A stretch of 64,000 nucleotides of DNA from Lacipirellulaceae bacterium (GTDB taxonomy: Bacteria > Planctomycetota > Planctomycetia > Pirellulales > Lacipirellulaceae), in the NCBI GenBank assembly GCA_040218535.1, contig JAVJRG010000009.1, positions 124,001-188,000 on the forward strand. Direction: 5' to 3'. The translations under genes were made by a program, and so were the position numbers. How positions within the stretch are numbered: the stretch's first letter is position 1; every line of letters starts with the position of its first letter. Below, in pieces: positions 23,336 to 39,732 of this stretch. The notes under the pieces were generated by a model. That model was not told where the DNA came from. It was given only the letters and a program-made list of their open reading frames with translations, and searched no databases.

Positions 23336-23352
23336 AAAGTGAACCTTGAGAA

Positions 23353-24288
23353 TCAATCTGTGAGAAGTTGTAAGGTTGCCGTCACTGGAAAATGATCAGA
23401 AGGGTAACGCCCCTCTTTGTTGAAACGCACGATGCCTGCTTCGAGGGTGCGGAAGTGCTTCGAGTGAAGTATGAAGTCGATTCGATTTCCGTAAGTCCAG
23501 CCTTTGAAGTTATTGAAAGTTCCTTCTTCGGCCCGTAGGCGAAACTGGTCCCGTACCTCATCAATCGGCTCAGGCAAAGGGTAAACAGACCGGTAACTGT
23601 CGATCAATCGCAAAGGGTTCTCTTGAGTGGGAGTAACGAGTTGCGTGAACGCCGGATTCTCTGGCGGGACATTCAAATCGCCCATGACCAGAATGGGTCG
23701 ATCTCCAGCCAGTTCAGGCAGACGCTTACGAATCAGCACTGCCGAGAAGAGGCGCGAGTCTTGAATCTGATGATCCCAATGCGTGTTCAGTACGACAAGT
23801 TCGCGCCCTTCGGCAAGAAGGTCATTGAGAATGATCCAAGAGGCGATTCTAGCGCAGCAAGTCTTTGGGTAACGGGAACCAGGTTGATCCGCTTGTTCAT
23901 TCAGCCAGAACGTCCCCTGATCGACCGGCTCGAAACGCGAGCGACGAAACAGAATCGCGCAGTACTCGCCCGTTTGCTTGCCATCGTCCCTACCCACGCC
24001 GTAGAAACCGTGCTTCGTCAGCATCCTCCGAATGTCTTGAACTTGATTCATGAGCGGTTCTTGAAGGCAGAGGATGTCGGGGTCGAAGTCTGAAACCATC
24101 TGCAAGACCAAATCACGACGGTGCTTGCCTGACAGGGAGATCCAAGAGTTCTCCTTGGGACTCAAGTAACCCTCCGCCTCGTCGAAGCGGATGTTGAACG
24201 ACATCACTCGACTTGCATGGGGCTGGTCCTGGGCTTGCACAGAAGCCGCAACCGCCCACAGAACAACGGCTAACAAAGAGAGACACAT
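23353..24288 (-). CDS. Secreted endonuclease/exonuclease/phosphatase (EEP) family protein
   Basis: 311 residues with a signal peptide (MCLSLLAVVLWAVAASVQAQ). The EEP fold is clear: VMSFNIRFDEAEG at the start, DILCLQEPLMNQ with the metal-binding Glu, VVLNTHWDH, LVMGDLNVPPENPAF, RIDFILHSKHF, and the final SDHFPVTATL with catalytic Asp-His. Family members act on phosphodiesters, including nucleic acids, inositol phosphates or sphingomyelin. An exported copy beside polysaccharide-degrading enzymes may help scavenge phosphate or nucleic acid. It heads the minus-strand run ending at 15.7 kb and is 17 bp from the GH1 gene. It is one of three EEP proteins in the window. Confidence 0.9.
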   Translation of the reverse strand: MCLSLLAVVLWAVAASVQAQDQPHASRVMSFNIRFDEAEGYLSPKENSWISLSGKHRRDLVLQMVSDFDPDILCLQEPLMNQVQDIRRMLTKHGFYGVGRDDGKQTGEYCAILFRRSRFEPVDQGTFWLNEQADQPGSRYPKTCCARIASWIILNDLLAEGRELVVLNTHWDHQIQDSRLFSAVLIRKRLPELAGDRPILVMGDLNVPPENPAFTQLVTPTQENPLRLIDSYRSVYPLPEPIDEVRDQFRLRAEEGTFNNFKGWTYGNRIDFILHSKHFRTLEAGIVRFNKEGRYPSDHFPVTATLQLLTD

Positions 24289-24388: not shown

Positions 24389-25108
24389 TTAAGCCTTACG
24401 ACGACGACCCAGGAAACCTACGAAACCAAGGCTAAGCAGCATCGCGCTCGTTGGCTCAGGGACTTGAAGAACGAAGTTGTCGAGGAACGCAGACTGCCCG
24501 CCTGGGATCACCGTGTCCTCACCATCGACCATGAAACCAGAAACGGTTAACACGTCACCAGCGGTCACACCCGAAAGAGAAATGGAGAACGGCGTGCCCA
24601 TGGGATTTCCTGAAGCAGCGCCGCCAAGGTTACCATCGGGGATGACTGCGGCGTTCAGATCGATCATGGCTGATCCGCCCGTACCGCTTGAGGTCAACGA
24701 AACACCAAACTCTCTGGAGAGGTGGTTCACTTCCCGACCTGCACGAAAGGAGAGCGTGTAATCGCCATCCGCCGGTGCGATCACGCTCTGTGTGATGTCA
24801 GCTTGGGCGAGTGGCTCGCCACTGTTTCCTTGATCACCCTCAAATGAACGGAACCAAATGCCGGTACCAGTCCCAGGTGCTTGAGTTCCTCCCACACCGG
24901 TATTGTTCGCATTTGCAAAACCGGTTTGAAACTGTGCGGCGCGATCGACGCCGTCCGGCATGTTGATCGTTAGCACCCAGTCGCTGTTGCTTGTGGTCGA
25001 GCCACTCATCGCGTCGTCGAAGGAACCATCGTCGAGCAAGTTGGCCTGTGCCGAACTTGCTAATACTGCCACCAAAGCAATGGCGGCAAACAGACTGAAT
25101 CGCTTCAT
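24389..25108 (-). CDS. PEP-CTERM secreted protein, carbohydrate-binding-like
   Basis: 239 residues with a signal peptide (FAAIALVAVLASSAQA) and a PEP-CTERM tail (VPEPTSAMLLSLGFVGFLGRRRKA). The body starts NLLDDGSFDDAM...DWVLT and continues with YTLSFRAGREVNHLSREFGVSLTSSGTG...SAFLDNFVLQ. This is the jelly-roll layout of CBM4/DUF642-type sandwich domains, in which the N-terminal NLLDDGSFD and the terminal FLDNFVL strands pair. It probably binds a ligand at the surface; no enzyme motif is seen. GGAGGG precedes the ATG. Its upstream region holds both a LacI-type operator (25241-25254) and a 20-bp palindrome (25183-25202), suggesting specific regulation with the beta-glucan locus. Confidence 0.87.
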   Translation of the reverse strand: MKRFSLFAAIALVAVLASSAQANLLDDGSFDDAMSGSTTSNSDWVLTINMPDGVDRAAQFQTGFANANNTGVGGTQAPGTGTGIWFRSFEGDQGNSGEPLAQADITQSVIAPADGDYTLSFRAGREVNHLSREFGVSLTSSGTGGSAMIDLNAAVIPDGNLGGAASGNPMGTPFSISLSGVTAGDVLTVSGFMVDGEDTVIPGGQSAFLDNFVLQVPEPTSAMLLSLGFVGFLGRRRKA

Positions 25109-25182
25109 GAGTCATACCCTCCTACTTAAAAAGACATCAAAAAGTTGTGCCGCAGCAATAAAAACCAATCTGCAGCCATCTG

Positions 25183-25202: not shown

Positions 25203-25240
25203 AAATCAAACACATCGTTACTCGCCACTAGGACGATCCT

Positions 25241-25254
25241 TGCAAGCGCTTTCA
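25241..25254. promoter_or_regulatory. LacI-type operator (site A)
   Basis: TGCAAGCGCTTTCA, a near-palindrome with the central CG typical of LacI-family sites; one base differs from perfect symmetry. The identical 14-mer occurs at 28322 and 39685, and a one-base variant at 34730 in front of the LacI gene. This copy lies about 135 bp upstream of the PEP-CTERM gene at 24389-25108. Confidence 0.7.
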
Positions 25255-25337
25255 AAAATTGCGTCAAATAAGTTCAGGAGTATCTTCAGGGTTATTCTTG
25301 GGAGGTTTGAAGTCGGACCAAGAAACTGCGTGAGGAG

Positions 25338-26489
25338 CTAAGAACCTTTGCCCAACCAGGGCGTTCGTGATCGTTGAACCAGTCCGGAAAGCGCCAATCC
25401 AACGCCCAAGATGACCAAAGTGTTTGGCTCGGGAACAGCACCGGTCGCCGCGACTGAAAGTCCCGACATCCCATAGTCTGTTTGAAACTGTGGAATCAGG
25501 CCCGGATCGGCTCGCTGAATCATCAAAAAGTCAGTGCCGTCGACATCACCGTCGTCGTCCACATCCGCGGTGGCTACAGCCGTTGGGTCGGTAATCGAAA
25601 AATTTGAAAACGTAGCGGTGTAATCATCGAGCCCAATGTTGTCGGCAACCACCTGCATGCGAAAGCCAATGTGGGTTCCGTCGCGAAGACCACCGTCGAT
25701 TGCTACGCCATTGACTGTCTGAGTTTGGATTTCCAAAGGGCCAGAAGTGAATTCCCCGCCTGGACTGCTGGGATCTGTATCGATCATGTATTCGAGCGTT
25801 CCCCGAGAAATAAATCCACCACCGTCTCGCTCTGGTGGAATGTAAAGCATCGTCAATCGTAAGGTGTCGCCAGCGGTGTAAAAGACTAGCTCGTTGTTGG
25901 TAAAACTATAATTGGGGATCAGCGTCGAACTCGAGACGCTAATCTGCCCTGGTTCAGTGCCGCCAAAAAGGTTGTTTGTCGTTTGAGCGGTGAATTGCGT
26001 TTTGACATTGTTTCCACCCGGATCGGAGTCGATGTAGAAACCGATTCCCTTACGATTGAGCGGATTAGTCGTTGCTAGATTCACATCGAAGCTAATCTCG
26101 AAAGGGTTTTCTTCTTGGAAGTCGTAGGGAGTGGCCCCCCCATCATCGGAAAAGACGAAAAAGTGTCCGTTGGACTCAAACAATGAGCCCCCATCCGAGG
26201 CACAAACGCCTGGATTAGTCTGACAGATCGAAGGGTGATCGATTCCGGTTTCAGTGAGAATCACTTCATTGTCATTGACATAAGACAGTGTCGGGGCGGC
26301 GTGGGGATTCCCCGCGTTAGGGTCAGGCGTGACGGTCGTACCCGCGAGATTCGCGAAAATGGCAAACGGATTGTAGTTGACGCCGTTGATACCCAGATGA
26401 TTGTTGGCTTGCGTCTGCGCGTTTAGCGTCGAACCTGGCGCGATTGCAAGTACGAGCAGTGTGCCAATTAATGCGAATCGATAACTCAT
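25338..26489 (-). CDS. PEP-CTERM secreted protein with a single dockerin-like repeat
   Basis: 383 residues with a signal peptide (FALIGTLLVLAIAPGSTLNAQ) and a tail VPEPNTLVILGVGLALSGLVQRSRTPWLGKGS. The basic end is longer than usual. The central part (LFESNGHFFVFSDDGG...FEISFDVNLATTNPLNRKGIGFYIDSDPGG...LRLTMLYIPPERDGG...GTHIGFRMQVVADNIGLDDYTATFSNFSI) reads as a beta-sandwich of the LamG/concanavalin type. Just before the tail is TADVDDDGDVDGTDFLMIQR, a dockerin-like calcium loop followed by the DYG end seen in several other proteins here. GGGGGAG stands before the ATG. Role unknown, presumably surface binding. Confidence 0.85.
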   Translation of the reverse strand: MSYRFALIGTLLVLAIAPGSTLNAQTQANNHLGINGVNYNPFAIFANLAGTTVTPDPNAGNPHAAPTLSYVNDNEVILTETGIDHPSICQTNPGVCASDGGSLFESNGHFFVFSDDGGATPYDFQEENPFEISFDVNLATTNPLNRKGIGFYIDSDPGGNNVKTQFTAQTTNNLFGGTEPGQISVSSSTLIPNYSFTNNELVFYTAGDTLRLTMLYIPPERDGGGFISRGTLEYMIDTDPSSPGGEFTSGPLEIQTQTVNGVAIDGGLRDGTHIGFRMQVVADNIGLDDYTATFSNFSITDPTAVATADVDDDGDVDGTDFLMIQRADPGLIPQFQTDYGMSGLSVAATGAVPEPNTLVILGVGLALSGLVQRSRTPWLGKGS

Positions 26490-26547
26490 GACTCCCCCTT
26501 AATACTCTCTATCGTACTCAGCCCCGAAATCCGCACAGTAACAAAAA

Positions 26548-27708
26548 CTAATCAATTTGAGTCACCTCACCGTCAGCCCGGTTACCCAGCAGATTAAAGA
26601 TCTCGCGGTCGATCTCGTAGTTCAAGAAATGTACGGATCCGTCGCCGTAGACCCCATTCATTCCACCCGCATGAGCTGAACCGAAACTCCGACCTCCTCC
26701 GATCACCGGAGATGACGGGTTAGCTTGATCGTTGAAGGCGGGCTCCTCTGCATCCGGCCCCATTGACCAAAAAGTCGAGCGAATCACGTCCCAGTCCCAG
26801 CCGTCCGACCAACCTCGATCGTCCCACCCTGCCCCAGTGGCATACTCACTAGGAATGAGCCGCTTTTCGCCAATCCACAGGGTATTGCTACTACCATCGG
26901 GAATTTTCTCGAACGAGACTTTTCGAGTAAATCCCAGCGAATACGCATTCGGATCATCGGGAGCAAACTGCGACCAATCGCAACGTTGAGTAATGCCCCT
27001 GAAGATCGCATTGCCCCAGGTGTTTAGCGCTGACGCGTTGTTAACAAAAGGATAATCTCCCCCACACCCTTGGCAGCCATCCCAAAGGGCCGGTTTGTCG
27101 GCACCAGGATTAGCCAAGAGTTGATCGTAGTTACCCGCGGAATAATCGCCAGCGACAAACTCGTTTCGCGAAGGCCCTGCGGTGGCGGCCGCGTAGTCCA
27201 TTAGATAGAAAGTCCACCCGCCCCACTCAGCCCCCGCCATCGGTTGGCTTAGCGTTGGGCCACGTCTTGAAGGACAGTTGTACATCTCAACAGGCGTCTC
27301 CGAGAGAACACGCATAGCATTCTTGACAGCCGACCCGTCATGCAAACTTGCAGCCGTTTGCGCAACATTATCTTGCTCGAGATGCGGCAGGATCTGATAG
27401 GCCCAACCGAGCCCCTGCTTGAACGGACCGTTCGGCTTACCGCCTGTAAAATAAGCGTCGAAGCTGGGGAAGTTTTTGGTTCCCCCCAAGGGAAAATGCC
27501 CCCTTGCTGACTCGAAGTTGAGGCCTGCCAGACCGATTTGCTTCAGATTATTCTGACACTGACTACGTCGAGCAGCCTCTCGTGCAGCCTGGACTGCCGG
27601 CAACAACAATCCGACAAGCACTCCGATAATGGCAATAACAACAAGAAGTTCGACTAGCGTGAACCCATGATAATTATGCGTTCTTGTCTTTAGAGATGTT
27701 GTATTCAT
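26548..27708 (-). CDS. DUF1559 protein with pilin-like N-terminus
   Basis: 386 residues. The prepilin signal is [28 protein letters not shown] with cleavage before Phe; [32 protein letters not shown] is the family's conserved continuation. The C-terminal H-X9-DG motif is HAGGMNGVYGDG. The middle contains a CQGCGGDYPF segment. It is preceded 63 bp upstream by the small lipoprotein gene at 27772-28212, here in the order lipoprotein then DUF1559, the reverse of the 6-kb cassette. It is probably secreted through a pilus-type system; molecular role unknown. Confidence 0.93.
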   Translation of the reverse strand: MNTTSLKTRTHNYHGFTLVELLVVIAIIGVLVGLLLPAVQAAREAARRSQCQNNLKQIGLAGLNFESARGHFPLGGTKNFPSFDAYFTGGKPNGPFKQGLGWAYQILPHLEQDNVAQTAASLHDGSAVKNAMRVLSETPVEMYNCPSRRGPTLSQPMAGAEWGGWTFYLMDYAAATAGPSRNEFVAGDYSAGNYDQLLANPGADKPALWDGCQGCGGDYPFVNNASALNTWGNAIFRGITQRCDWSQFAPDDPNAYSLGFTRKVSFEKIPDGSSNTLWIGEKRLIPSEYATGAGWDDRGWSDGWDWDVIRSTFWSMGPDAEEPAFNDQANPSSPVIGGGRSFGSAHAGGMNGVYGDGSVHFLNYEIDREIFNLLGNRADGEVTQID

Positions 27709-27771
27709 GGCAATGCTCTTCTCACGTCAACTGAGGAGGAACTAAGTCGTTGAATTGCTAAGACTTACGGT

Positions 27772-28212
27772 TTAACGTTCAACAAGCCAACCAAACCTTT
27801 CGTCATCGACTTCTCTAACTGCTCCGGTGTTATCCGCGACATAGCGCCGACCATCCACGCCCTGCTGTTCGTAACCAACAATACCTTGACTGCTTCGAAC
27901 CTTATTCCCTTCCGTCGAAAAGATGTAAGGCTGATTATCTCGCGGTGAAACAAAGAAATTATCGATGGTCAGATTCTTATCACTCATATACTGAGCACCA
28001 TGCTTCTCGACATAGCGTTTAAAGTCTTCTAGCTGCTTTGGAATTTTACCGCGGTTGTCACGGGTATAGTCCATGTAGGCCATCGCCAGCCAACGAAAGT
28101 GCGAGTTTTCTCTCTCCAGAGCCGCGGGCGATGCCTTAGGGCTACAACCTAAGCTCGCAAGCATAAGCGATGCTACCAAGTAGGTAGCGAACAAGTTCCG
28201 AACGAAAAGCAT
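27772..28212 (-). CDS. Small lipoprotein paired with DUF1559
   Basis: 146 residues from the ATG at 28212 (AAGGTG just upstream; a GTG two codons earlier is also possible). The signal ends in SLMLASLGCSPKAS, a clear lipobox. The mature part is alpha-helical then mixed: ERENSHFRWLAMAYMDYTRDNRGKIPKQLEDFKRYVEKHGAQYM...NFFVSPRDNQPYIF...VGYEQQGVDGRRYVAD. This recalls the globular part of pseudopilin-like proteins, in which a short residue range is checked before a display region, but I cannot assign a family. Its position before the DUF1559 gene suggests a shared transcript and a joint envelope role. Confidence 0.78.
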   Translation of the reverse strand: MLFVRNLFATYLVASLMLASLGCSPKASPAALERENSHFRWLAMAYMDYTRDNRGKIPKQLEDFKRYVEKHGAQYMSDKNLTIDNFFVSPRDNQPYIFSTEGNKVRSSQGIVGYEQQGVDGRRYVADNTGAVREVDDERFGWLVER

Positions 28213-28321
28213 TGGCACCTTACCCGCCTACAAGGTAGGGGAGCCCTAACTAACAACCCAATAATCTTGGGGCAACAAACATCATCTTACTCCCCATTAT
28301 CATACATGAAGCACCAATTAC

Positions 28322-28335
28322 TGCAAGCGCTTTCA
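28322..28335. promoter_or_regulatory. LacI-type operator (site B)
   Basis: TGCAAGCGCTTTCA, identical to site A, lies 155 bp upstream of the PEP-CTERM GH144-like gene at 28491. The region is AT-rich around it. It is non-coding, so coding constraint does not explain the match. Confidence 0.75.
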
Positions 28336-28490
28336 TATTGGTTTTTCAAGTATTTTTCTTCCCGTGAAAAGGCCCTACACGAGTCAATTTACCGTGTTCC
28401 TCCGTCCACGCTAGGTATGATACGGGAGAGCCCTATCTTAGTGGAAATCTGGTGTTTTCTGACGCTCGATCCCGAAACAGCAAGAACGTG

Positions 28491-29951
28491 ATGAAACCGC
28501 CCTTTAAACTACTGCTCATTGCCCCATTCCTGATTGGACACTTTTGCGCCCTGGACGCAGCTATTGCTCAGCAATTCGAAGCCGCCCGGAATGATCAAAT
28601 AGCAAAACTCCAGACATACATCCTCGATGCCATCCAACCCTCCGGCTTGGTACGCGATTCCTTAGTTCTCAGCGGCAACAGCTTTCATCCGGCGACACCG
28701 GACGCTGCCGGCTTTGCGCTGCTCGGTCTGAGCTCTCTCGACCATCTCGGAACTCTGCAGAACGCCGATCAGCATGTCATCGACATTCTCTCCGCCCACA
28801 CTGGCAACACCCCGGGCGTGACGCCTGAACGGTCGGCCGATGGCCACTTTATTCACTTCATGGACATCGCCGACGGAACCGACCCGCCTGGATGGGACGA
28901 TTCCTACAGCCCCATCAGTTCAGCGCTCATTGTCGCTGGGGCGCAGTTCGCCAAGAATCACTTCTCCGAAAACCAAACAATTGCAGACCTTGCCGACGAA
29001 CTGACCAACAGCATCGACTTCGACGCAGCTATCCATCCCAGCCTTGACGGGCGCATTTTCTTGGATATGACCAAGAGCGGTGGAGGCAGCGGCGGTGCGG
29101 TGAGACCATGGAATGAATTCATGCTTGTGCATAGCCTAGCACTCAAGCAACCCAACAACAATCGTGCCCTGGCTGTCGCGGGCGACTGGCTCGACGTGAA
29201 TCAGATCACGAAACGCACCTATGATGGAACGCCCACACTGAGCGATTCGCAAAACAACTTTGCTCCGGCGTTTTGGGTGCAACAAATGCACTTCTTCAAT
29301 GGCGACTTCCGTCACAACGCTGATTTCGAGACTTATTTCGAAAATGCACGCATCGCTGATGAGGCTTATTCTACGGACGTCCTTGGCGAAACTTTTCGTT
29401 ATGGACTCACGGCGGGAGTCAGCCCCCAGGGGTACAACGCGGATCGAATCCTGAATCACCCAAACAATGTTTTTTCTCCCGAAGCTGTCGCTGCTTGGGG
29501 CGACATGGACACCTTCTTGGATTTCTATAACAGCCAGTACCCAACAACCGACTCACGGTATCGTTACGGTCTAGTACGAGAATCTGCGACTCAGCCAACG
29601 TGGGTCCCCAACGATACGGCACTCGTCGATCACCTGTTCTTGCTTTTTGGTCTCGTCGAAAGTATCCACCCCAACTTCTACGCGGATCGAGTCTTCGCCC
29701 CCTACATCGCGGGTGATTTTGATGATGATGGGATGGTTGCGGGAGCAGATTTTCTCGAATGGCAACAAGAAATACCAGCGGCCTACGACTCGATCGACCT
29801 GTCGAACTGGCTCGCCAACTACGGAAGTGGTGCCTATGCTTCAGGGGCTTTCGTGAGTGTCCCGGAGCCGCAAACCGTCTGGCTCTTAGCCGTTCTCTTG
29901 GGATTGACGCTCAAAAAGAGGCGGAGAATCGAAGCGGCGGCACGACGCTAG
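28491..29951 (+). CDS. PEP-CTERM-anchored glycoamylase-like (GH144-related) protein with a dockerin-like loop
   Basis: 486 residues with a signal peptide (FKLLLIAPFLIGHFCALDAAIAQ). The body aligns with the GH144-type protein at 34907-36364: SGLVRDS / PLVKDRY, GHFIHFMDIADG / GIYLHYVDLNTG, SALIVAGAQFA / HALLQAGAMTV, VRPWNEFMLVHSLAL / FRPWTWYKASAEEHL, AFWVQQMHFF / AFTYFFAHCW, and YGLTAGVSPQGY...VFSPEAVAAW / WGMSPAADL...MFMPEESVAAL. The conserved STVD segment reads SPISS here, so an acidic residue is missing and activity may be altered. A dockerin-like loop (GDFDDDGMVAGADFLEW) and VPEPQTVW plus a basic end anchor it at the surface. A LacI-type operator precedes it. Its stop overlaps the convergent GH94 stop (CTAG). 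Confidence 0.75.
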   Translation: MKPPFKLLLIAPFLIGHFCALDAAIAQQFEAARNDQIAKLQTYILDAIQPSGLVRDSLVLSGNSFHPATPDAAGFALLGLSSLDHLGTLQNADQHVIDILSAHTGNTPGVTPERSADGHFIHFMDIADGTDPPGWDDSYSPISSALIVAGAQFAKNHFSENQTIADLADELTNSIDFDAAIHPSLDGRIFLDMTKSGGGSGGAVRPWNEFMLVHSLALKQPNNNRALAVAGDWLDVNQITKRTYDGTPTLSDSQNNFAPAFWVQQMHFFNGDFRHNADFETYFENARIADEAYSTDVLGETFRYGLTAGVSPQGYNADRILNHPNNVFSPEAVAAWGDMDTFLDFYNSQYPTTDSRYRYGLVRESATQPTWVPNDTALVDHLFLLFGLVESIHPNFYADRVFAPYIAGDFDDDGMVAGADFLEWQQEIPAAYDSIDLSNWLANYGSGAYASGAFVSVPEPQTVWLLAVLLGLTLKKRRRIEAAARR

Positions 29952-32900
29952 AGTCGCACTACCACTTGGTGGGTTTTGCCATCATCAGCGAGTGGAACCG
30001 TTGCCGCTCCGTCGGTGATCACAAGAGCTTGCTGGTTGAGCGCCGCAAAACGGACTCCATTCTCTCGACCTTCTGGATTCTCAATCGAGATTTCATAGGT
30101 TGTCGCACTCCCCGGCAACCGATACGTCACGCGGCACTCTGGCCATTCGGCACTAATGCGTGGATCAATTACCAAGCGGTCGCCCCCTTTAATGGTGATC
30201 CCCAAGAGTGACTCAACAGCCACACGGAACATCCAACCCGCGGAGCCCGTGTACCACGACCATCCAGCTCGTCCGGCGTGAGGGGGCTGACTATAAACGT
30301 CCGCGGCGATCACATACGGCTCGGCCTTGTAGGTGTCCACACCAGACGGGTCTTTGGTATGGCTCACAGGCGAGATCATTTCCAACAGTCTCGTTGCTTC
30401 GGTCCCCTTGCCCATCTCCGCCATCGCGCGAATAAACCAGAGAATACCATGCGTGTACTGCCCGCCGTTCTCACGGATGCCAGGCAAGTAGCCTTTGATG
30501 TAGCCGGGGTCGTTTGGCATCTTGTCAAAGGGCGGATCAAGTAACTGGATCAAACCGGCTTCACGGTCGACCAATCGATCGGTTGCCGCCTGCATCGCCT
30601 TCTCTGCCCTTTCATGAGGAGCCGCACCTGACATGACCGACCAGGCTTGAACGAGCGCATCAATCTGACACTCTTCGCCCTCGGCAGTGCCGAGCGGCGT
30701 GCCATCATCGAAGAACGCGCGCCGATACCACTGGCCGTCCCAGCCTGCATCGTTGAGCGCGATCCGCAACTGCTGACGGTAAGCACGATACTTTTGTAGA
30801 CGAACGAGATCGTCAAACTGTTCGCAGACTGGCAACATGCGTTCAAGGATGTAATCGATAAAGAACCCGAGCCAAACACTTTCTCCCTGACCGCTCGCTC
30901 CTTTGGCACCCTGCCCGACTCGATTCATGCCGTCATTCCAGTCACCGCACCCCATCAAGGGCAAGCCATGTGGCCCTATTGTCAGTCCCTTATCCAGAGC
31001 ACGGCAGCAGTGTTCGTAAACGGTACCGACTTCGCCTGAGTCCTCTGGCGTGAGCAAGACCTCCGCTTCGCGAGCGGGGACCTTTTCGCCTGCGAGAAAG
31101 CGGACTTCCTCTTGCCAAAGCGATTCATCGCCGGTCGCCTGCACATACTCAGCGGCGAACAGCGGCATCCAGAGCAGGTCGTCGGAGAAGATTGTGCGGA
31201 TGCCTAAGCTCTGCGGCGGGTGCCACCAGTGCAACACGTCTCCTTCGACAAATTGATGAGCCGCGTTGCGAAGGATCTGCTCGCGAGTCAACTCCGGCCA
31301 CTGGAGCATCCACGCTGCGGCGTCCTGAAGCTGATCGCGGAAACCGTAAGCACCTCCCGATTGGTAGCTGCTCGATCGACCCCATAAACGGCAGCTTAGG
31401 TTCTGATACCCCAACCAACCGTTGACCATCAAATCGAGGGCTGGTGAAGGTGTCTGGATCTGCACGGCGGAAAGCTTCTCACGCCAAAATTCTTGAACTT
31501 CTGCCAACTCCTGCTGGCAAGCCTCTGGTGTTCGGTATTGCTCAAGGATTCTTTCTGCCCCACGTTGATCCTCCGCCTCACCAAGGAGAACCACGTACTC
31601 AGTCGTCTCACCAGGAGCGAGTTCAATCATCACTTGGCTAGCGGCACACGGGTCCAAGCCTTCCCCAACTGTCCCCGAGAACGACTGTTCCGTTTGCAAC
31701 GCTGCAGGATCGGAGAGATGGCCATGCCGCCCGAGAAATTCTTTCCGATTACCTGTGAGAGTCTGTTCGCCAACCGGTTTCGGCGTGAGCATCGCAGCGA
31801 AAGCCACTCGGTCAGAAAAGACGCCACGCGCCTCATTGGTTGCGAAAACTGCTTGATAAGGTTCTGAAATAGACGTCTTTATCGGCTGCGGCTCACCCAG
31901 ACTCCCGTCATCAAGAGCCCACTGGTGGTAGGAGAAGAGGCGAAGCCGTCTTGGTCGATCTTCTAGGTTTCGCAACCGAACAATCGTCACCTTCACGGCC
32001 CCGACACGCGGTACAAATTGCACCACTTCTTGGCTTAATCCTTGACTCGAGTGCAGGAACTTCGTGTAGCCGAAACCATGCCTCACCTCAAAATCGCACC
32101 CTTGCTCAACCGGCCCTGGGGTCGTCGACCAAAAGACGCCTTGCTCTTCGTCTCGCAGGTAGAGCGCTTCGCTGTGCGGATCACGTACCAAATCATTCTG
32201 CCAGGGTGTCAGCCGATTCAATCGGCTATTCGCTGCCCACGTGTATCCGGCCCCCGACTCAGAAACGATAAAACCACCGTCGGGATTTGCGATGATGTTG
32301 GCCCACGGCATCGGAGGTCGAGTAAGCTGGCCTGCGCCGTTCGCACGCAGCCGAATCACGTACTCGGTCCCGTCTTCCGAAAACCCGCCCTTGCCGTTGT
32401 CAAACTGTAACTTCTCTGGATATGTCCGTTCTTGAGTTTCCGTCGCCCCGCCCGTCGCAGGCCAAAACTTTCTCTCGTATGCTTGCCGACTAATCGTCTC
32501 ATTATCTGCGTTTTGGGTATCTGCAGGCTGGGCAAAACCGTTTCGTCCTGATGAAGGCGAAATGCCTGCCGGAAAGTCGACTCGAAACTGCTTTCCTTGG
32601 AACTCAAACCGATCAACGGCCCTGTCGTCTTTGACGACGGACTGATAGGACTGCTCAACAGTTTCATCTTTGGAGTAACGCTCGACGATTTCCGAGAGTT
32701 CTCCGAACTCAAAGCCTGCCGCAAGGGCGAAAGTTACGCAAACGCTTTCACCAGGAGGTAAAAAAAACTCTTTTCGCAGGCTAAAGATCGGATCAAGCAC
32801 ACTGCCCAAAGATCCAACAAGTCCGCTCTTCTCCTGCATGGCAAGGGGATGACAAGTATCGCGACCCCGCCCCAAGAAACGGGAGCGATCTGTCTCGTAC

Positions 32901-33535
32901 GCAGGAGGCTCGCCATGATTCGAACCCGCCAAGAAGTGCACTGCCTTCAGTGTCTGCTCGCCCCCACTCCTAGGGCGACGACTTGCCATGAGAGTGCCAT
33001 GTTCGCTGAGACTTGTCTCGACGAACAGTTTGGAAAAAGCAAGATGAGCCGCATCGGCTGCTGCCTCTTGTAGAACCAGCTCGGCGTAACTAGTTAGTTC
33101 AATCCGTCGCGGCTCGAATCCTAGGTTTGTGATCGTACAGCTTCGCAATTCGAGAGGGGCATTCGGCGCGACCCAAACCCGCATGACCGAATCGATTCCC
33201 AGCTGAGAGTTGCGGAACTCGATCACGCTTCCGTTGACGGCAACTGACTGCTCACTAGCTTCCTTGAGCGTCGGCTGATACGAGGTCGACCAGTATTCGC
33301 CCGAGTCTAAGTCGCGGACATAAACGAAATAACCCTCTGCGTCAGAAGTTGCATCACCTCGCCAGCGCGTTACCGCCACTTCACCATGAAAAAGGCCACC
33401 CGCACCGGTTGTACTCAAGACCGAAGCTAGCTCCGCATTGGCCAACTGAAAGTAGCTTGGGGTACGCTCATCGGTTCGCAGCGCACCCTCCGGCGACTTT
33501 TCTCCTAGAGTCGATGTGGTAGGCTGAGTTTGCAT
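29948..33535 (-). CDS. GH94 glycoside phosphorylase, likely 1,2-beta-oligoglucan phosphorylase
   Basis: About 1195 residues from the ATG at 33535 (AAGGG upstream); a TTG at 33574 is the alternative. There is no signal peptide, so the protein is cytoplasmic. Two related N-terminal beta-sandwich units (each with a Y/W-S-T-S/T-x-P motif and a FLGRGR/FLGRHG segment) precede an alpha-barrel with YQSGGAYGFRDQLQDAAAW, HWWHPPQSLGIRTIFSDDLLWMPL and GLPLMGCGDWNDGMNRVG (about 860-870), where the DWND motif holds the general acid. The end is GSAGWMFRVAVESLLGI. This matches the C-terminal region of cyclic beta-1,2-glucan synthases and stand-alone sophorooligosaccharide phosphorylases of about 1100 residues. 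It should phosphorolyse beta-1,2-glucooligosaccharides to glucose 1-phosphate. It lies 79 bp after lacI. Cellobiose-type specificity is the alternative. Confidence 0.85.
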   Translation of the reverse strand: MQTQPTTSTLGEKSPEGALRTDERTPSYFQLANAELASVLSTTGAGGLFHGEVAVTRWRGDATSDAEGYFVYVRDLDSGEYWSTSYQPTLKEASEQSVAVNGSVIEFRNSQLGIDSVMRVWVAPNAPLELRSCTITNLGFEPRRIELTSYAELVLQEAAADAAHLAFSKLFVETSLSEHGTLMASRRPRSGGEQTLKAVHFLAGSNHGEPPAYETDRSRFLGRGRDTCHPLAMQEKSGLVGSLGSVLDPIFSLRKEFFLPPGESVCVTFALAAGFEFGELSEIVERYSKDETVEQSYQSVVKDDRAVDRFEFQGKQFRVDFPAGISPSSGRNGFAQPADTQNADNETISRQAYERKFWPATGGATETQERTYPEKLQFDNGKGGFSEDGTEYVIRLRANGAGQLTRPPMPWANIIANPDGGFIVSESGAGYTWAANSRLNRLTPWQNDLVRDPHSEALYLRDEEQGVFWSTTPGPVEQGCDFEVRHGFGYTKFLHSSQGLSQEVVQFVPRVGAVKVTIVRLRNLEDRPRRLRLFSYHQWALDDGSLGEPQPIKTSISEPYQAVFATNEARGVFSDRVAFAAMLTPKPVGEQTLTGNRKEFLGRHGHLSDPAALQTEQSFSGTVGEGLDPCAASQVMIELAPGETTEYVVLLGEAEDQRGAERILEQYRTPEACQQELAEVQEFWREKLSAVQIQTPSPALDLMVNGWLGYQNLSCRLWGRSSSYQSGGAYGFRDQLQDAAAWMLQWPELTREQILRNAAHQFVEGDVLHWWHPPQSLGIRTIFSDDLLWMPLFAAEYVQATGDESLWQEEVRFLAGEKVPAREAEVLLTPEDSGEVGTVYEHCCRALDKGLTIGPHGLPLMGCGDWNDGMNRVGQGAKGASGQGESVWLGFFIDYILERMLPVCEQFDDLVRLQKYRAYRQQLRIALNDAGWDGQWYRRAFFDDGTPLGTAEGEECQIDALVQAWSVMSGAAPHERAEKAMQAATDRLVDREAGLIQLLDPPFDKMPNDPGYIKGYLPGIRENGGQYTHGILWFIRAMAEMGKGTEATRLLEMISPVSHTKDPSGVDTYKAEPYVIAADVYSQPPHAGRAGWSWYTGSAGWMFRVAVESLLGITIKGGDRLVIDPRISAEWPECRVTYRLPGSATTYEISIENPEGRENGVRFAALNQQALVITDGAATVPLADDGKTHQVVVRL

Positions 33536-33614
33536 CGAAACAACTGCCCTTGATTCTTTCCTGAACGGCTTCAATCACGAACTTCGAAGACAACTGTCAG
33601 AAGCGTTCACTGTA

Positions 33615-34640
33615 CTAGCCGATTGGCTTCTCTTGGAGTGAGGAGCCGCTTGCCCCGCAGGAATCGCGAACGACTAACTCCGACTGCAACGTTAATTTTG
33701 TATGGGGACGATCCCCCTCGATGAGCCTTTGGCAAAGCAATTCAATCGCCGACGCCCCCATGCTCGACATTGGCACATGCACGGTCGTCAGCCGAGGCCG
33801 CGTCATCTGCGCGATGCGCGTATCATCGAAGCCGACAACGCGTAGTCCCCCTGGGACCGAAACGCCATTCTCAATCGCCGCATCAATGATGCCGGCTGCC
33901 ATCTCATCGTTGGCAGCAAAAACAGAGGCTTCTGTACGTGCCCACTCTCGCACGTGCTTGAGGCCCAGTTCGTAGGCGGTTTCGTAGCGATAGTCGAGAT
34001 GAAAAATGTCTTTCTCCCCAACTTCCAATCCCGACTCTTCCATGACTGTCTTGTAGGCAGAAAGGCGGTCAATCGTATCGATATTTGTCACTAAACCGCC
34101 CAGAAAGATGATGCGTTTCGCGTGGCATTTCGCTACTAGGTGCTGCACCATTGCTGAGGCACCCTGCACTTGGTCAATCGAAACGCAGTCGTGCTTCAAT
34201 CCTTCGACAGTCCCGTCAAGGACAACGTAGGGAATCTTGATGCCAGAAAGCGTTTTCCGTGTCTGGTCATCCACCTCAGAAACCATGAAGGCCAAGCCAT
34301 CCGCCAAGCCGTGCTCCAAGACCGCTGATAGTGCTGAACTGTCTTCTTCACTTTGCGTGATCGAGGAGACCATCAGTTGGTAGCCCATCTGCCGAGCACG
34401 CGAATTCGCGCCGCGGATGATTTCCGAATAGAACTCGCCGTGCAGGTCAGGCAGGACGAGCGCCAAGATATGGCTCTTCCGCAACATTAACCCACGGGCG
34501 AAAACGTTGGGCTTGTAGCCAAGCTCCTCGATGGCAGACTCTACCCGTTTCCGCGTCGCCGCGTTGACAATGTTCTGACGATTCAACACGCGCGAGACCG
34601 TGCTAATCGAAACGTTGGCCTTTTTGGCCACATCTTCCAT
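33615..34640 (-). CDS. LacI-family transcriptional regulator
   Basis: 341 residues if started at the ATG at 34640. A TTG at 34652 with GGAG 6 nt upstream is an attractive alternative; the open frame extends further, but that part would cover the operator and lacks homology. The helix-turn-helix is MEDVAKKANVSISTVSRVLNRQNIVNAATRKRVESAIEELGYKPN, followed by the periplasmic-binding-like sensor domain (ILALVLPDLHGEFYSEIIRGANSRARQMGYQL...VVGFDDTRIAQMTRPRLTTVHVPMSSMGASAIELL). It is probably a sugar-responsive repressor of the flanking glucanase, transporter and phosphorylase genes. An operator-like site lies 90 bp upstream, consistent with autoregulation of the divergent promoters. Confidence 0.93.
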   Translation of the reverse strand: MEDVAKKANVSISTVSRVLNRQNIVNAATRKRVESAIEELGYKPNVFARGLMLRKSHILALVLPDLHGEFYSEIIRGANSRARQMGYQLMVSSITQSEEDSSALSAVLEHGLADGLAFMVSEVDDQTRKTLSGIKIPYVVLDGTVEGLKHDCVSIDQVQGASAMVQHLVAKCHAKRIIFLGGLVTNIDTIDRLSAYKTVMEESGLEVGEKDIFHLDYRYETAYELGLKHVREWARTEASVFAANDEMAAGIIDAAIENGVSVPGGLRVVGFDDTRIAQMTRPRLTTVHVPMSSMGASAIELLCQRLIEGDRPHTKLTLQSELVVRDSCGASGSSLQEKPIG

Positions 34641-34728
34641 CGAAGCGGGCAACGCAGACTCCAAGCTGTAAGCCGATCGGGAAAGACCAGAGTGAACGAG
34701 TTCGGGCACGGCAGAATAGCCGCACCGA

Positions 34729-34757
34729 TTGACAGCGCTTTCATTCAAGAATAGTCT
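34729..34757 (+). promoter_or_regulatory. LacI-type operator (site C) overlapping a TTGACA box
   Basis: TGACAGCGCTTTCA (34730-34743) differs from sites A, B and D by one base and from a perfect palindrome by one base. A consensus -35 box TTGACA (34729-34734) overlaps it. TAGTCT follows after 17 bp as a weak -10, pointing towards the glucanase gene at 34907. The site sits between the divergent lacI and glucanase genes, so one bound repressor could block both. Confidence 0.65.
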
Positions 34758-34906
34758 GGCATACATGCGTTTGTCAATGATTACCTGAGCCGCCACCTCG
34801 CTCACTTTCAATCTTTTTCAGCGCGCCCTAGACCTGTTTCTCTTCTCCACTGCGAAGGCCTCGCTCACCCGTGTTCGTTTATCCCGACATCAACGAGCTG
34901 AGAGCT

Positions 34907-36364
34907 ATGCTTCGCACGACGTTAACGGTCGGTTGTTTTTTTCTGCTTTCTCACGCTTGCCTTCATGCAAACGAGGTTTCCAAGCCTGCGATTCTTCGTA
35001 GCCCCGCAACGGAAAAAGTGCTCGATCACGAGTTTAGCACTGAAGACCAAGAGCTTCTCACGGAGATTCAGCGGGGCTGTTTCGAGTTCCTGTGGAAAGA
35101 AGTCGGCGATCCGGTCCCGCTCGTCAAAGATCGTTACACCAACGACATCGCATCGAGCTTAGCAGGCGTTGGTTTTCAACTGTCCGCGATTCCAATCGGT
35201 GTCGAACGTGGTTGGATCACTCGAGACCAAGGCGAAGAGCGAGCCAAGAAAATCCTGTCAGGCATCGTTTCCCGCGAAGATAATAAGAAGCACGGCATCT
35301 ACTTGCATTACGTTGATTTGAACACGGGGGGCATGCACAGCGATCCGCATCTGCAGGTACAGGCGAGCACAGTCGACCATGCGTTACTCCAAGCAGGTGC
35401 GATGACCGTGAGCGTCTACTTTGGCGGTGAGGTTCAAGCACTCGCCGACAAGTTAGTCGCCGACGCTAACTGGCAGATTTATCAACTTGAAAAGGACGGC
35501 CCGATCTCCTTTGGTTGGCGACCGGATGAGAAGAATAAACATGACCTCACCGGCCCCGGCGACTTCCGCCCCTGGACATGGTATAAGGCCAGTGCCGAGG
35601 AACATCTCGTGACTTTTCTCGCGGTCGGCGCTCCCAAACCGGAGCATGCCGTCGATCCAAAGGTTTACTACGGGTTGGAACGCGTGATCAAGCGACACAA
35701 GGACATGCCACCGTTTGCCGTCTCGTGGGGCAGTCAGGCGTTCACCTATTTCTTTGCCCATTGCTGGATCGACTACGATAAGTTCGCGGCAGACGACCCG
35801 CAAGCCTTCGGCGTCGACTACCCACCGATTGATTGGTTCGAGAACTCTCGCCGTGCGTTGCTAACTCATCGCCAACGGTGCCTTGAAGCCGCCAGCGAGT
35901 ACAAGTCTTTCGGCCCCAACCGCTGGGGCATGAGCCCGGCAGCCGATCTCAACGAAAAGGGCGAAATGAGCTACATCGTCCAGTCGATCAGGCCGAGCAT
36001 GGAAGGGACCGACAACTTCTGCGGCGGAACGGTCACCCCATACGCTGCCGGATCAGCGATCATGTTCATGCCTGAGGAATCGGTCGCTGCGTTGCGGGAG
36101 TTCCGTAATCTCAAGAACAAGGACGGCGAGCACATCGTCTGGCGACCTCTCGAAGAAGGCGGCTACGGGCTGCTCGACAGTTTCAATCTTGACCGTGAAG
36201 AACAACAGGGAACGCCTGACTACTTGAGCATCGACGACGGTCCAATGATTCTCGCCATCGAGAACGCACGCACCGGTTTGATCTGGGACTTATTCATGAG
36301 GCACCCAGCTGCGCAACGTGCCGTCGAGCGGCTCAAATGGAAGCGCGAGGACGCGATTGACTGA
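34907..36364 (+). CDS. Glycoamylase-like (PF10091/GH144-type) exported glucanase
   Basis: 485 residues from the ATG at 34907, which begins the signal peptide (MLRTTLTVGCFFLLSHACLHA); GAGAG is just upstream. The all-alpha barrel of the glycoamylase-like family is evident: DQELLTEIQRGCFEFLWKEVGD, VKDRYTNDIASSLAGVGFQLSAIPIGVERGWI, KHGIYLHYVDLNTG, QASTVDHALLQAGA (STVD at 154-157), FRPWTWYKASAEEHLV, FAHCWIDYDKF, WGMSPAADL, GTVTPYAAGSAIMFMPEESVAALREF. Characterised members of GH144 are endo-beta-1,2-glucanases. It probably cuts beta-1,2-glucan to sophorooligosaccharides in the periplasm. It overlaps the sugar symporter gene by 8 bp and is divergent from lacI and GH94, which supports this substrate; other beta-glucans remain possible. 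Confidence 0.8.
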   Translation: MLRTTLTVGCFFLLSHACLHANEVSKPAILRSPATEKVLDHEFSTEDQELLTEIQRGCFEFLWKEVGDPVPLVKDRYTNDIASSLAGVGFQLSAIPIGVERGWITRDQGEERAKKILSGIVSREDNKKHGIYLHYVDLNTGGMHSDPHLQVQASTVDHALLQAGAMTVSVYFGGEVQALADKLVADANWQIYQLEKDGPISFGWRPDEKNKHDLTGPGDFRPWTWYKASAEEHLVTFLAVGAPKPEHAVDPKVYYGLERVIKRHKDMPPFAVSWGSQAFTYFFAHCWIDYDKFAADDPQAFGVDYPPIDWFENSRRALLTHRQRCLEAASEYKSFGPNRWGMSPAADLNEKGEMSYIVQSIRPSMEGTDNFCGGTVTPYAAGSAIMFMPEESVAALREFRNLKNKDGEHIVWRPLEEGGYGLLDSFNLDREEQQGTPDYLSIDDGPMILAIENARTGLIWDLFMRHPAAQRAVERLKWKREDAID

Positions 36365-38165
36365 GCCCGCCCAAATTGAAAACAGCCCTTCGAGCGCTGC
36401 GGAAATAAGGCCACAAGGGCGAGTCTCGTGGACGCAACTTGTCGCCTACGGCAGTGGCGGAATTATCCCGATTGCTTTGTTCTACATTGCAGGCCAGATC
36501 ACCGCCCTGCTCGGAAATATCTCCTTAGGACTGAGCGCATTTTGGCTGGGTGCCATCCTCATGGTGCCACGACTGTGGGACGCGATCTCCGATCCGCTCA
36601 TGGGGCACATTACCGACAACACTCGTTCTCGGTGGGGACGACGGAAGCCGTACATTTTGATCGGCGGCATTGCGGTCGCCCTGAGCTTCGTTGCCATCTG
36701 GTGGGTTCCGCGAGGCGAATCAGTGCAAGCCTACTTTGGTAGCGAGTCTGCCTACAACTGGTTTCAACTGACATTCCTGCTCGGTGGTGTCCTCGTTTTC
36801 TTCACAGCATGTACCGTCTTTGAAATTCCTCACGGCGCGCTCGGGATGGAGATGACCGACGACTATCACGAACGGACACGGCTATTCAGTGCAAAAAGTT
36901 TCCTAGGAAACCTGTTCGCCATGGGCACGCCATGGTTGATCGCTTTGGCAAGCATGGAGTTCTTCTGCGGCCCAGGCGGCGATCCCATTGATGGAATGCG
37001 GTACGTTTCCATCGCCATTGCGGCGATCTTGATTCCGCTTTCGTTCTGGTGGTTCGCTACCCTCACTGAACCCGGGTTTCGAGTCGCACGCGATCAAGAG
37101 AAAACAGAACTCTGGAAAGATCTGAAATCAACTAGCAGCAACAAGAATTTCCTCAGACTTGTAGCGATTATTTTTACGCTCGCCCTGGGGTTCAATCTGG
37201 TCGGTAACTTTGCGAATTACATCAAGATTTTTTACCTCTACGGAGGGGACATCTCGTTAGCTTCCACGCTGCTAGGGATCGATGGTACTGTCTGGGCCGT
37301 CACCGCTCTGGTTGCCGTATTCCCGCTGAACTGGATCAGCGAGCGAATCGGCAAAAACCGGACGCTTATCGTTGCAATCCTGCTAATGTGCCTCGCCCAA
37401 TTTCTGAAAGTGTTCTGCTACAATCCCGACCTGCCCTACCTGGTACTCTTGCCGACGATGCTGCTCTCGGCAGGGATGCTCATGTTTTTTACGCTCGGCG
37501 CTTCAATGGTCGCAGACATCTGCGATGAGGATGAACTCAACACAGGCACCCGATCGGAAGGCAGTTACTACTCCGTTTTTTGGTGGTTCATCAAGATGGG
37601 GAGTGCGCTGGCCAGCTTGCTTACCGGCGCACTGTTGCTGTTTACCAACTTCGACGAGAAACAAAACGTCGCTGTCGATGAGTTGCGCGGGAGTATGCAG
37701 ACAATCGAGAGTGTTTTCAAGGAAGAGGAGGAGTCAGAGCCTGAGAAGAAACGGCAAGAGACGCTAGTAGAGCAAATGAAAGAAGCTCTCAAGGCACTCG
37801 ACAAGATCGAGAAACATTTTCAGCAGCGGCAAACAGTGCAGCAAGGCGACAATCAGCACTTGGAGAACATCCGGGCAGAACTAAAAGAGCTCCGCCCTTT
37901 GGTGCTAGAATTCGACGCGAGAAAGGACGAGTTTCTCGCGTCGTCAGAAGATCTCTTGAAGACGATCGAGCTTATTCTTGCAAAAACAGTTGCTGTGAAG
38001 CAGCAGTCCCCGACAACCCTTCTGCGATTGCGGGTCGTTGAAATCTGCTTGCCTTTGATACTGAGCGTTTTTTCTATATGGCTTACTCTTAAGTATCCGT
38101 TGACCGAGAAGCGTTGCTACGAGATCAAAGCGATCCTCGAACACCGCCGGGGCGATCCGTCCTAA
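36357..38165 (+). CDS. GPH-family sugar:cation symporter with a large coiled-coil insert
   Basis: 602 residues from a TTG at 36357 that has GAGG 6 nt upstream; it overlaps the glucanase stop by 8 bp, giving translational coupling. The MFS/GPH signature is clear: WTQLVAYGSGGIIPIALFYIAG, RLWDAISDPLMGHITDNTRSRWGRRKPYILIGG, TVFEIPHGALGMEMTDDYHERTRLFSAKSFLGN, SMVADICDEDELNTGTRSEGSYYSVFWWFIKMGSALA. It should import the oligosaccharides released by the glucanase. Odd point: about 124 mostly charged residues (about 432-555), predicted coiled coil (KEEEESEPEKKRQETLVEQMKEALKALDKIEKHF...NIRAELKELRP), are inserted before the last transmembrane helix. Normal GPH members have about 450-500 residues. Confidence 0.88.
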   Translation: MTEPAQIENSPSSAAEIRPQGRVSWTQLVAYGSGGIIPIALFYIAGQITALLGNISLGLSAFWLGAILMVPRLWDAISDPLMGHITDNTRSRWGRRKPYILIGGIAVALSFVAIWWVPRGESVQAYFGSESAYNWFQLTFLLGGVLVFFTACTVFEIPHGALGMEMTDDYHERTRLFSAKSFLGNLFAMGTPWLIALASMEFFCGPGGDPIDGMRYVSIAIAAILIPLSFWWFATLTEPGFRVARDQEKTELWKDLKSTSSNKNFLRLVAIIFTLALGFNLVGNFANYIKIFYLYGGDISLASTLLGIDGTVWAVTALVAVFPLNWISERIGKNRTLIVAILLMCLAQFLKVFCYNPDLPYLVLLPTMLLSAGMLMFFTLGASMVADICDEDELNTGTRSEGSYYSVFWWFIKMGSALASLLTGALLLFTNFDEKQNVAVDELRGSMQTIESVFKEEEESEPEKKRQETLVEQMKEALKALDKIEKHFQQRQTVQQGDNQHLENIRAELKELRPLVLEFDARKDEFLASSEDLLKTIELILAKTVAVKQQSPTTLLRLRVVEICLPLILSVFSIWLTLKYPLTEKRCYEIKAILEHRRGDPS

Positions 38166-38175
38166 GATAAATGCG

Positions 38176-39732
38176 CTAGGTTGGATCGTTGGTTGTCACT
38201 TCCAACTCGGTCCGCAAACGTTGCAACTCCTTTTCCATCGTCGACTGCTGATCGGCATACTCGGCTTTCCCGTAGACGCTATTCATTTCATCGGGGTCGG
38301 CTTCTAAGTCGAACAATTCCCACTCGTCGAGCTTGTAATAGTGGATGAGTTTCAGTCGACCGTTGGTTACACCGTAATGTTCGGCGACATTGTGGCCTCT
38401 GCCCTCGTAATAGTGGTAGTAGAACGACTTCCGCCAATCCTGCGGCGTCTGACCCTCAAGGATTGGCACCAAGCTGCGGCCTTGCATCTGTGCCGGAACC
38501 TCAACGTCGGCGATGTCGAGGAATGTCTCCGCAAAATCCAGATTCGACACAATCGATTTGCTGACCGTCCCCGGCTTGGTCTTTCCTGGCCAACGCACGA
38601 TCAAAGGGGTTCGCAACGATTGCTCATACATCCATCGTTTGTCGTACCAACCGTGTTCTCCCAAATAGAATCCTTGGTCGGAGGAGTAAATGACGATCGT
38701 ATTTTCAGCGAGTCCTTCCTTGTCGAGATAGTCAAGAAGCGTGCCCACACTATCGTCGACACCTGCCGCACAAGCTAAGTAATCTTGCATGTAGCGTTGG
38801 TACTTCCAGCGGACCAATTCCTTACCTTCGAGTTTCCCCTCGTAAAGCAGCCTATTCTTTCGATCGATTGCAGGCTCGAACTTGGCCTTCTGCCTCGTTG
38901 TCATTTTGCCGTAGAACCAGTTTCGATCGTTGGTCCCATTAGGAGGGTTTTTTTCGTCTTGCTTCCAAGCCTTTAAGTCAGCGGCACGCGTGTTCATATG
39001 GTCGGAGATACGCATTGTTGCGTTGCGAGCAGCTGAAGCGCGATTCTCATAATCATCAAACAGTGTCTTTGGTTCGGGAAACTCGTGGTCGGCAAAGTCG
39101 TTGATATGATCCAGTCCTGGGTCCCAAGGACGATGCGGTGCTTTATGCTGCATCATGATCATAAAGGGCTTGTTGGGATCGCGACCTTCATTCAGCCACT
39201 GCAGCGTGTAGCGTGTCACCAAGTCGGTCGTGTAGCCGACATGCTGCGTTTCACCTAAAGGCCCCATGAACTTTGATTGGTAGTAGTAGCCCTGCCCCTT
39301 GATCAGATTCCAATGATCGAAACCCTGTGGGTGGGTCTTGTGCCCCAGGTGCCACTTGCCAACGATCGCCGTTTGGTAGCCGGCCTGTTGAAGTAGTTTC
39401 GGGAACGTCAGTTGGCTGTTGTCGAACTCTTCACCATTGCCGTAAAAGCCGTTCTTGTGACTGTATTTCCCCGTGAGAATGCACGCACGACTTGGCCCGC
39501 AGATCGAGTTCGTCACATAGCAGCGATCAAACCGCATTCCCTCGCTAGCAATTCGATCGATATGGGGCGTAGTGGTCAGTTCCGACCCATAGGCACTGAT
39601 CGCCTGATAGGCATGGTCGTCAGAGAAAATGAAGACGATATTGGGCCGCTCAACTGCAAGAGCATGGTTCAGGAAGAGCAGGCATGAAAGCGCTTGCAAC
39701 AATCGTGCGGGAAAGACTGAAATAGGCTTCAT
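38176..39732 (-). CDS. Formylglycine-dependent sulfatase, exported
   Basis: 518 residues with a signal peptide ([16 protein letters not shown]). The alkaline-phosphatase-like sulfatase fold has the metal ligands in [15 protein letters not shown] (Asp38, Asp39) and the Cys-type signature [21 protein letters not shown], with Cys78 as the residue converted to formylglycine. Other family blocks are [73 protein letters not shown], and the C-terminal [17 protein letters not shown]. It removes sulfate from a sulfated glycan outside the cytoplasm. It is convergent with the symporter (10-bp gap). A LacI-type operator match lies inside its signal-peptide codons (39685-39698), so it may belong to the same regulon. 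Confidence 0.93.
39685..39698. promoter_or_regulatory. LacI-type operator match inside the sulfatase start (site D)
   Basis: The reverse complement reads TGCAAGCGCTTTCA, identical to sites A and B. It lies 35-48 bp downstream of the sulfatase start codon, within the signal-peptide codons. Roadblock operators at such positions are known for LacI-type repressors. Coincidence is less likely given the exact match, but coding position lowers confidence. Confidence 0.5.

Follow-up and report, generated by a model that had tools for sequence, protein, structure and literature searches.

A candidate LacI-controlled locus for the catabolism of beta-1,2-glucan in a planctomycete of the family Lacipirellulaceae

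Introduction

Many bacteria produce beta-1,2-glucans, which play a part in symbiosis, pathogenesis and osmoregulation, but to our knowledge little is known about the organisms that consume them in the environment. Here, we describe a locus that spans about positions 21962-39732 of a 64,000-nt stretch of DNA (hereafter the window, whose positions serve as coordinates) from Lacipirellulaceae bacterium GCA_040218535.1 (JAVJRG010000009.1:124,001-188,000). With a probability of about 0.8, we regard it as a catabolic regulon under the control of LacI that serves the use of exogenous beta-1,2-glucan; the glucan may be linear or cyclic and could bear acidic substituents. This reading is based on the genes present and their families, on the catalytic residues that are conserved, on where the operators lie and on the recurrence of the locus in relatives.

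The closest precedent for its central pair of enzymes is found in Ignavibacterium album, where a secreted glycoside hydrolase (GH) of family GH144 and a GH94 protein of the cyclic glucan synthase (CGS) type belong to one degradation cluster (IALB_1177-1187, PMC8861115). Its transport genes are for an ABC importer and a TonB-dependent transporter, and it also encodes a GH35 glucosyltransferase, whereas the window has a GPH symporter, a GH1 enzyme, a GH194-like surface protein, a sulfatase, a protein of the endonuclease/exonuclease/phosphatase (EEP) family, PEP-CTERM proteins and LacI operators. The lin1839-1841 cluster of Listeria innocua (PMC3960220) likewise combines import and phosphorolysis of sophoro-oligosaccharides with a beta-glucosidase for the remnant, and a binding protein like Lin1841 occurs in some relatives of the window locus; in Listeria, however, the phosphorylase is of another GH94 group, the glucosidase of family GH3 and the importer of the ABC type. 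In Streptomyces griseus, SGR_2422-2427 combines, in the accessible part of the report (PMC12369401), a same-clan glucanase of family GH193, an ABC importer and a GH1 beta-glucosidase that lacks a signal peptide; that part mentions no GH94. Finally, among solved structures, the window GH94 is most closely related to the phosphorylase domain of the synthase AtCgs, whose cyclase domain shares the GH144 fold. AtCgs is a single membrane protein of ~2800 residues devoted to synthesis, whereas the window GH94 is soluble and devoid of glycosyltransferase, cyclase and Rossmann-like subdomain. The literature that we searched describes no beta-1,2-glucan locus in planctomycetes, and returned only the paper on GH192-194 and unrelated matches. 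The locus is marked by an unusually sharp candidate regulon, a CGS-type phosphorylase and a glucanase relative that lacks its base; it also has surface and pseudopilin genes that the published descriptions of these clusters do not mention.

Four Operators Delimit a Candidate Regulon

The core of the locus is a divergent arrangement, already recognized in a sequence-only reading of the window: a LacI gene and a GH94 gene on the minus strand face away from a GH144-type gene and a GPH symporter gene on the plus strand. The LacI-family repressor (33615..34640), identified by its domain match, is 59-72% identical to its orthologues in relatives' loci. Its open reading frame (ORF) runs to 34811, but the start is probably the ATG at 34640, because the helix-turn-helix begins only at residue 57 of the ORF and the LacI ORFs of relatives mostly have ~340-356 residues. 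The GH94 gene lies at 29948..33574 (likely start ATG 33535), and the GH144-type gene at 34871..36364, with a signal peptide near the M at 34907. The symporter gene ends at 38165; the 8-bp overlap with the GH144-type gene that was first described holds if it starts at 36357, whereas the longest ORF starts at 36318. The symporter (MelB-like, sugar:cation) matches PF13347 above the cut-off (E=8.6e-66) and TIGR00792 with 174.7 bits, under the curated cut-off of 231. It also carries, before its last hydrophobic segment, a charged, coiled-coil-like insert of ~110 residues (residues ~455-565).

Near-palindromes of the LacI type are present in both intergenic regions. The motif TGNNAGCGCTTTCA has four exact matches in the 5,355,217-bp genome that we searched for operators and families, and all four are inside the locus, within 14.5 kb. 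Three read TGCAAGCGCTTTCA: at 25241..25254 (plus strand), upstream of a minus-strand operon of PEP-CTERM, EEP and GH1 genes; at 28322..28335 (plus), upstream of the GH194-like gene; and at 39685..39698 (minus), within the part of the sulfatase gene that encodes the signal peptide. The fourth, TGACAGCGCTTTCA (34730..34743, plus), occupies the divergent region between LacI-GH94 and GH144-type-GPH. Assuming uniform placement, we estimate the chance of three further sites landing in the same 14.5 kb at ~2e-8. From their position and conservation, the LacI of the locus is predicted to bind these operators, which thus define a precise candidate regulon, testable by induction. Operator-like sequences TGAAAGCGCTTCCA were also seen within the GH94 coding region of three relatives (L028:8802, L034:9073, L027:8864); they may be auxiliary operators or due to codon chance.

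The operators enlarge the locus. The sequence-only reading had placed it at 28322-39732; the genes in this interval are as it described, but the interval is too small and its left boundary is the exact start of an operator. Beyond it, the operator at 25241 precedes the operon that contains the GH1 gene, which is therefore tied into the regulon. This GH1 beta-glucosidase (21962..23356, minus; GH1 E=4.5e-151), with no signal peptide seen, and the predicted secreted EEP-family protein (23353..24288, minus; PF03372 E=4.6e-23), whose genes overlap by 4 bp, had been omitted from the first description, together with the operators and the role of the sulfatase. Indeed, GH94, GH1 and GPH all have a shared LacI-type operator restricted to the locus, so that phosphorylase, glucosidase and importer are apparently co-regulated.

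A Stand-Alone GH94 Phosphorylase of the Cyclic-Glucan-Synthase Type

The GH94 protein (1208 residues, GH94 domains only) was first related, from its layout, both to 1,2-beta-oligoglucan phosphorylases and to the C-terminal region of cyclic glucan synthases. Only the second relationship was retained. Against solved proteins, AtCgs scores 799 bits, cellobiose phosphorylase 296 bits and LpSOGP (5h3z) 18 bits (E = 0.0039), placing the protein outside the characterised LiSOGP/LpSOGP group of 1,2-beta-oligoglucan phosphorylases by sequence similarity. It has the GP1-GP2-catalytic layout and the conserved catalytic acid and phosphate-binding residues of CGS-type phosphorylases. The acid is D881, which corresponds to D2528 in AtCgs; R746, D747, W879, E1035, Y1040, H1042 and S1111 fit, by motif and spacing, the residues of LpSOGP that contact sugar or phosphate (PMC5309861), and the eight positions together match the sites given for LpSOGP and AtCgs (PMC5309861, PMC10901819; motif positions). 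A check of these residues had been called for at the outset, and they are kept. The Rossmann-like subdomain is replaced by a short linker, since the stretch between the two aligned blocks has ~80 residues against ~217 in AtCgs.

When 87 sequences were placed in a tree, 46 stand-alone GH94 proteins came out as a single clade with a Shimodaira-Hasegawa-like approximate likelihood ratio test (SH-aLRT) support of 99, which covers Planctomycetota, Pseudomonadota, Gemmatimonadota, Myxococcota, Verrucomicrobiota and others. Twelve planctomycete proteins form a subclade (SH-aLRT 99), and the whole clade groups with the cyclic glucan synthases of Bacteroidota, Balneolota and Rhodothermota (SH-aLRT 96), in a quick tree that has a long outgroup branch and places two stand-alone ORFs of Verrucomicrobiota among the synthases. 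A GH144-type gene is found near the stand-alone GH94 at at least 10 loci outside planctomycetes, and a separate GH144-type gene at none of the full-length synthase loci in our sample. The locus draws attention to a clade of stand-alone GH94 phosphorylases that extends over several phyla and is apparently uncharacterised. The "NdvB" of Xanthomonas (XCC4077), a possible stand-alone relative with known function, was rejected, being listed as a cellobionic acid phosphorylase (PMC8950772).

These results bear on two other readings of the locus. Action on another beta-glucan (i.e., cellulose, laminarin or mixed-linkage glucan) would be compatible with the GH1 and GPH families, which are not linkage-specific. 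Yet the GH94 protein is far from cellobiose, laminaribiose and cellodextrin phosphorylases, a grouping with the first two having been named beforehand as fatal to the beta-1,2-glucan assignment, and the tested enzymes of the glucanase families present here are specific for beta-1,2-glucan (PMC12102758); we hold such a substrate to be very unlikely. Remodeling of the cell's own glucan could be suspected because the tree traces the GH94 clade and the chain-length domain of a biosynthetic enzyme to a common ancestor. A search of the genome, however, revealed no other GH94, hence no cyclic glucan synthase, and no MdoG/OpgG, and LacI, importer and beta-glucosidase are catabolic features, which makes a remodeling function highly improbable. 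Since a second PF10091 gene (the Pfam family of GH144) is missing from the genome as well, the substrate of the proposed regulon is probably foreign.

A GH144-Type Protein with Its Catalytic Acids and a GH194-Like Protein without Its Base

The GH144 assignment of the first glycosidase is supported at the profile level by a PF10091 match (E=3.3e-36) and by full-length alignment with solved GH144 proteins (4gl3, E 4e-36; XcSGL 8xul, E 1e-35). The base D169, the acid E243 and the clan-defining F291 are conserved, so that the locus encodes a member of the beta-1,2-glucanase clan with its catalytic acids. An alternative alignment, in which the protein would lack the base and carry Gln at one position, was rejected: once E142 of CpSGL is aligned with the motif TVDHA, the base proves to be Asp and conserved. 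With seven relatives from planctomycetes, this protein forms a deep clade of eight members (SH-aLRT 98). The clade stands next to, but apart from, the two GH144 branches with characterised members, the XcSGL branch and the Bacteroides/exo branch; a second planctomycete GH144 type belongs to the latter.

The surface protein encoded tail to tail with GH94, with an overlap of 4 bp (28452..29951, plus; likely start ATG 28491), had been taken for a second GH144-like enzyme. It has no PF10091 match, and its only significant PDB match is the characterised enzyme PgSGL3 (8xuk) of family GH194, with E 2e-25 alone and 1.8e-35 as a profile over 348 profile positions. The similarity covers the (alpha/alpha)6 domain, and we consider the protein as GH194-like; it is predicted to be secreted and anchored through PEP-CTERM (TIGR02595). 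Its structure model was poor, with a mean predicted local distance difference test (pLDDT) of 42.8, and the fold match to PgSGL3 (Z 13.3) was not used as evidence.

By residue counting, E214 of PgSGL3 is the Glu of NEYMLV and D148 the Asp of SPVDSA. The window protein reads NEFMLV and SPISSA: the general acid is conserved (E222, counted from 28452), and the position of the general base D148 is occupied by Ser. This position is Ser or Gly in three relatives of the protein, i.e., it bears no acid in any of the four members. The loss is probably derived, because a distant GH194-like protein of another planctomycete (L134) retains the Asp. Moreover, the window protein has an added dockerin-like and PEP-CTERM tail that sets it apart from PgSGL3 (PMC12102758).

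The D148N substitution lowers PgSGL3 activity to <0.1% (PMC12102758). Because of this effect and of the Ser or Gly at the base position, the GH194-like surface protein more likely binds the glucan than cuts it, and it provides a natural example of a surface protein that resembles a glucanase but has lost the catalytic base. Alternatively, the protein could still cleave beta-1,2-glucan with a different acidic residue in the role of the base, giving the locus two hydrolases: the general acid and its surrounding motif are conserved, and fungal GH162 has its base at a different position (PMC12102758). The replacement in all four members, the fate of D148N and the probably derived nature of the loss argue against it; apart from GH162, the sole other clan group without an acid at that position has no known activity. 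Such an activity thus seems unlikely.

Conservation of the Locus in Relatives

GH94 matches were found in 16 of the 43 genomes of the family that we searched (about 14 of them strong), and we examined the gene content of the loci of eleven relatives (genomes and loci are designated below by G and L numbers). The gene set, i.e., LacI, GPH or ABC importer, GH1, GH144-type, GH194-like, PEP-CTERM and DUF1559 genes, recurs in these 11 loci in shuffled order; G010 has nearly every component of the window (GH94, GH144-type, GH194-like, GPH, LacI, GH1, EEP, sulfatase, PEP-CTERM proteins and DUF1559). GH1 homologues inside these loci have 43-64% identity. The same operator motif lies beside LacI, GH94, PEP-CTERM, DUF1559 and GH144-type genes, often with few or no sites elsewhere in the genome (sites inside the locus/in the genome: 3/3 in G010 and G011, 4/4 in G033 and G036); some genomes without a strong GH94 match also carry one to three sites. 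With the four exact operators of the window confined to 14.5 kb and the gene set found in 11 other genomes, the genes and their arrangement are beyond chance.

The symporter in place of an ABC importer had been seen as a peculiarity of the window. It is not one: within the family, the same locus has GPH (G010, G011, G019, G021, G026), ABC (G024, G025, G033, G036, G037) or both (G028). The solute-binding protein of the ABC-type loci is related to the sophoro-oligosaccharide binder Lin1841 (5ysb E=3.9e-59).

The predicted secreted sulfatase (38176..39732, minus; identified by its domain match and a C-G-P-S-R formylglycine motif) adjoins the GPH gene in the window and the GH144-type gene in G010, G011 and G024. 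EEP homologues belong to the loci of G010, G011 and G019, and EEP is present in G000 too. This recurrence, the proximity of the sulfatase to the GH144-type gene in the window and the operator in the sulfatase gene itself would suit a true substrate that is a sulfated or phospho-esterified beta-1,2-glucan (e.g., an osmoregulated periplasmic glucan), with sulfatase and EEP as essential first steps. On the other hand, both genes are missing from the loci of several relatives, and planctomycete genomes are rich in sulfatases. We give such a substituted substrate, with both enzymes essential, somewhat less than even odds.

Proposed Pathway

We propose that, without substrate, LacI would occupy the four operators and silence the transcription units. 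With beta-1,2-glucan present, and under a presumed LacI effector, the PEP-CTERM surface proteins, the GH194-like one among them, would keep the glucan attached to the cell surface. Substituents would be removed by the predicted secreted sulfatase and EEP-family esterase, a plausible first step, and the GH144-type enzyme, which is predicted to be secreted from its signal peptide, would cut the glucan into sophoro-oligosaccharides, outside or in the periplasm. These would be taken up by the GPH symporter and, in the cytoplasm, undergo phosphorolysis by GH94 from the non-reducing end, giving alpha-glucose-1-phosphate and a short remnant; the remaining sophorose would probably be split by the cytoplasmic GH1. 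Secreted cleavage, symport and phosphorolysis of beta-1,2-glucan had already been proposed as one pathway, and this scheme now has good support from the family assignments and catalytic residues, from the gene content conserved among relatives and from the shared operator.

Several points weigh against a beta-1,2-glucan regulon. A looser motif gives one further operator outside the locus (C10:424392), and one of the four sites is within the sulfatase coding region. The specificity of the GH144-type enzyme could have drifted, since its clade is deep (stem of ~1.6 changes per site). We found no biochemically characterised stand-alone GH94 of this clade in the literature that we consulted, including the accessible part of a review of characterised phosphorylases (PMC8950772), and no outer-membrane uptake gene was identified. 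Finally, the solute-binding protein of the relatives finds its best PDB match in a different sugar-binding protein (3uor), which scores above Lin1841.

Surface Proteins and Candidate New Families

Three further surface-associated genes lie on the minus strand between the EEP and GH194-like genes. The small PEP-CTERM protein (24389..25108), with homologues in G010 and G019, is the first gene of the operon behind the operator at 25241. At higher coordinates lie the genes of a PEP-CTERM/dockerin-like protein with weak domain matches (25338..26489) and of a DUF1559 (SBP_bac_10) pseudopilin with a prepilin N-methylation motif (26548..27708). A DUF1559 pseudopilin gene is found at nearly every such locus in relatives (e.g., L033:15896-17068, L035:3337-4461), in some directly behind a LacI-type operator; there are only 65 DUF1559 genes in 5.36 Mb. 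The pseudopilin might conceivably take part in capturing glycans.

In nearly all relatives' loci, a secreted protein of ~740 residues (cl2), absent from the window, adjoins GH94 (L028:11469-13751, L029:11070-13274, L031:11791-16226, among others). It is composed of a carbohydrate-binding-module-like sandwich, a glucanase-like domain, and dockerin-like and PEP-CTERM tails. The AlphaFold model of its second domain (mean pLDDT 66) is nearest to beta-1,2-glucanases (XcSGL, Z 19.0, root-mean-square deviation 4.0 over 325 residues). Its sequence profile, searched against the PDB, gave dockerin-like and EF-hand matches only and no solved glucanase, so that cl2 may represent a new family within the beta-1,2-glucanase clan.

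A bolder proposal, which we advance only tentatively, would join these elements: a catalytically dead glucanase would have become a surface glucan binder and, with dedicated pseudopilin and PEP-CTERM proteins, would form the capture device of a self-contained regulon in the family, while the deep GH144-type clade and the carbohydrate-binding-module-plus-(alpha/alpha)6 protein of relatives would be new families of the clan.

Two other arrangements were observed in relatives. L127 (G034:C1:4702000-4721999) is a smaller locus without GH94, which contains LacI, cl2, a PEP-CTERM protein, DUF1559 and two operators 3.4 kb apart. In G019 only, a 1104-residue protein with F5/8 type C and six-hairpin glycosidase-like domains (L031:4389-7700) is encoded between GPH and GH94.

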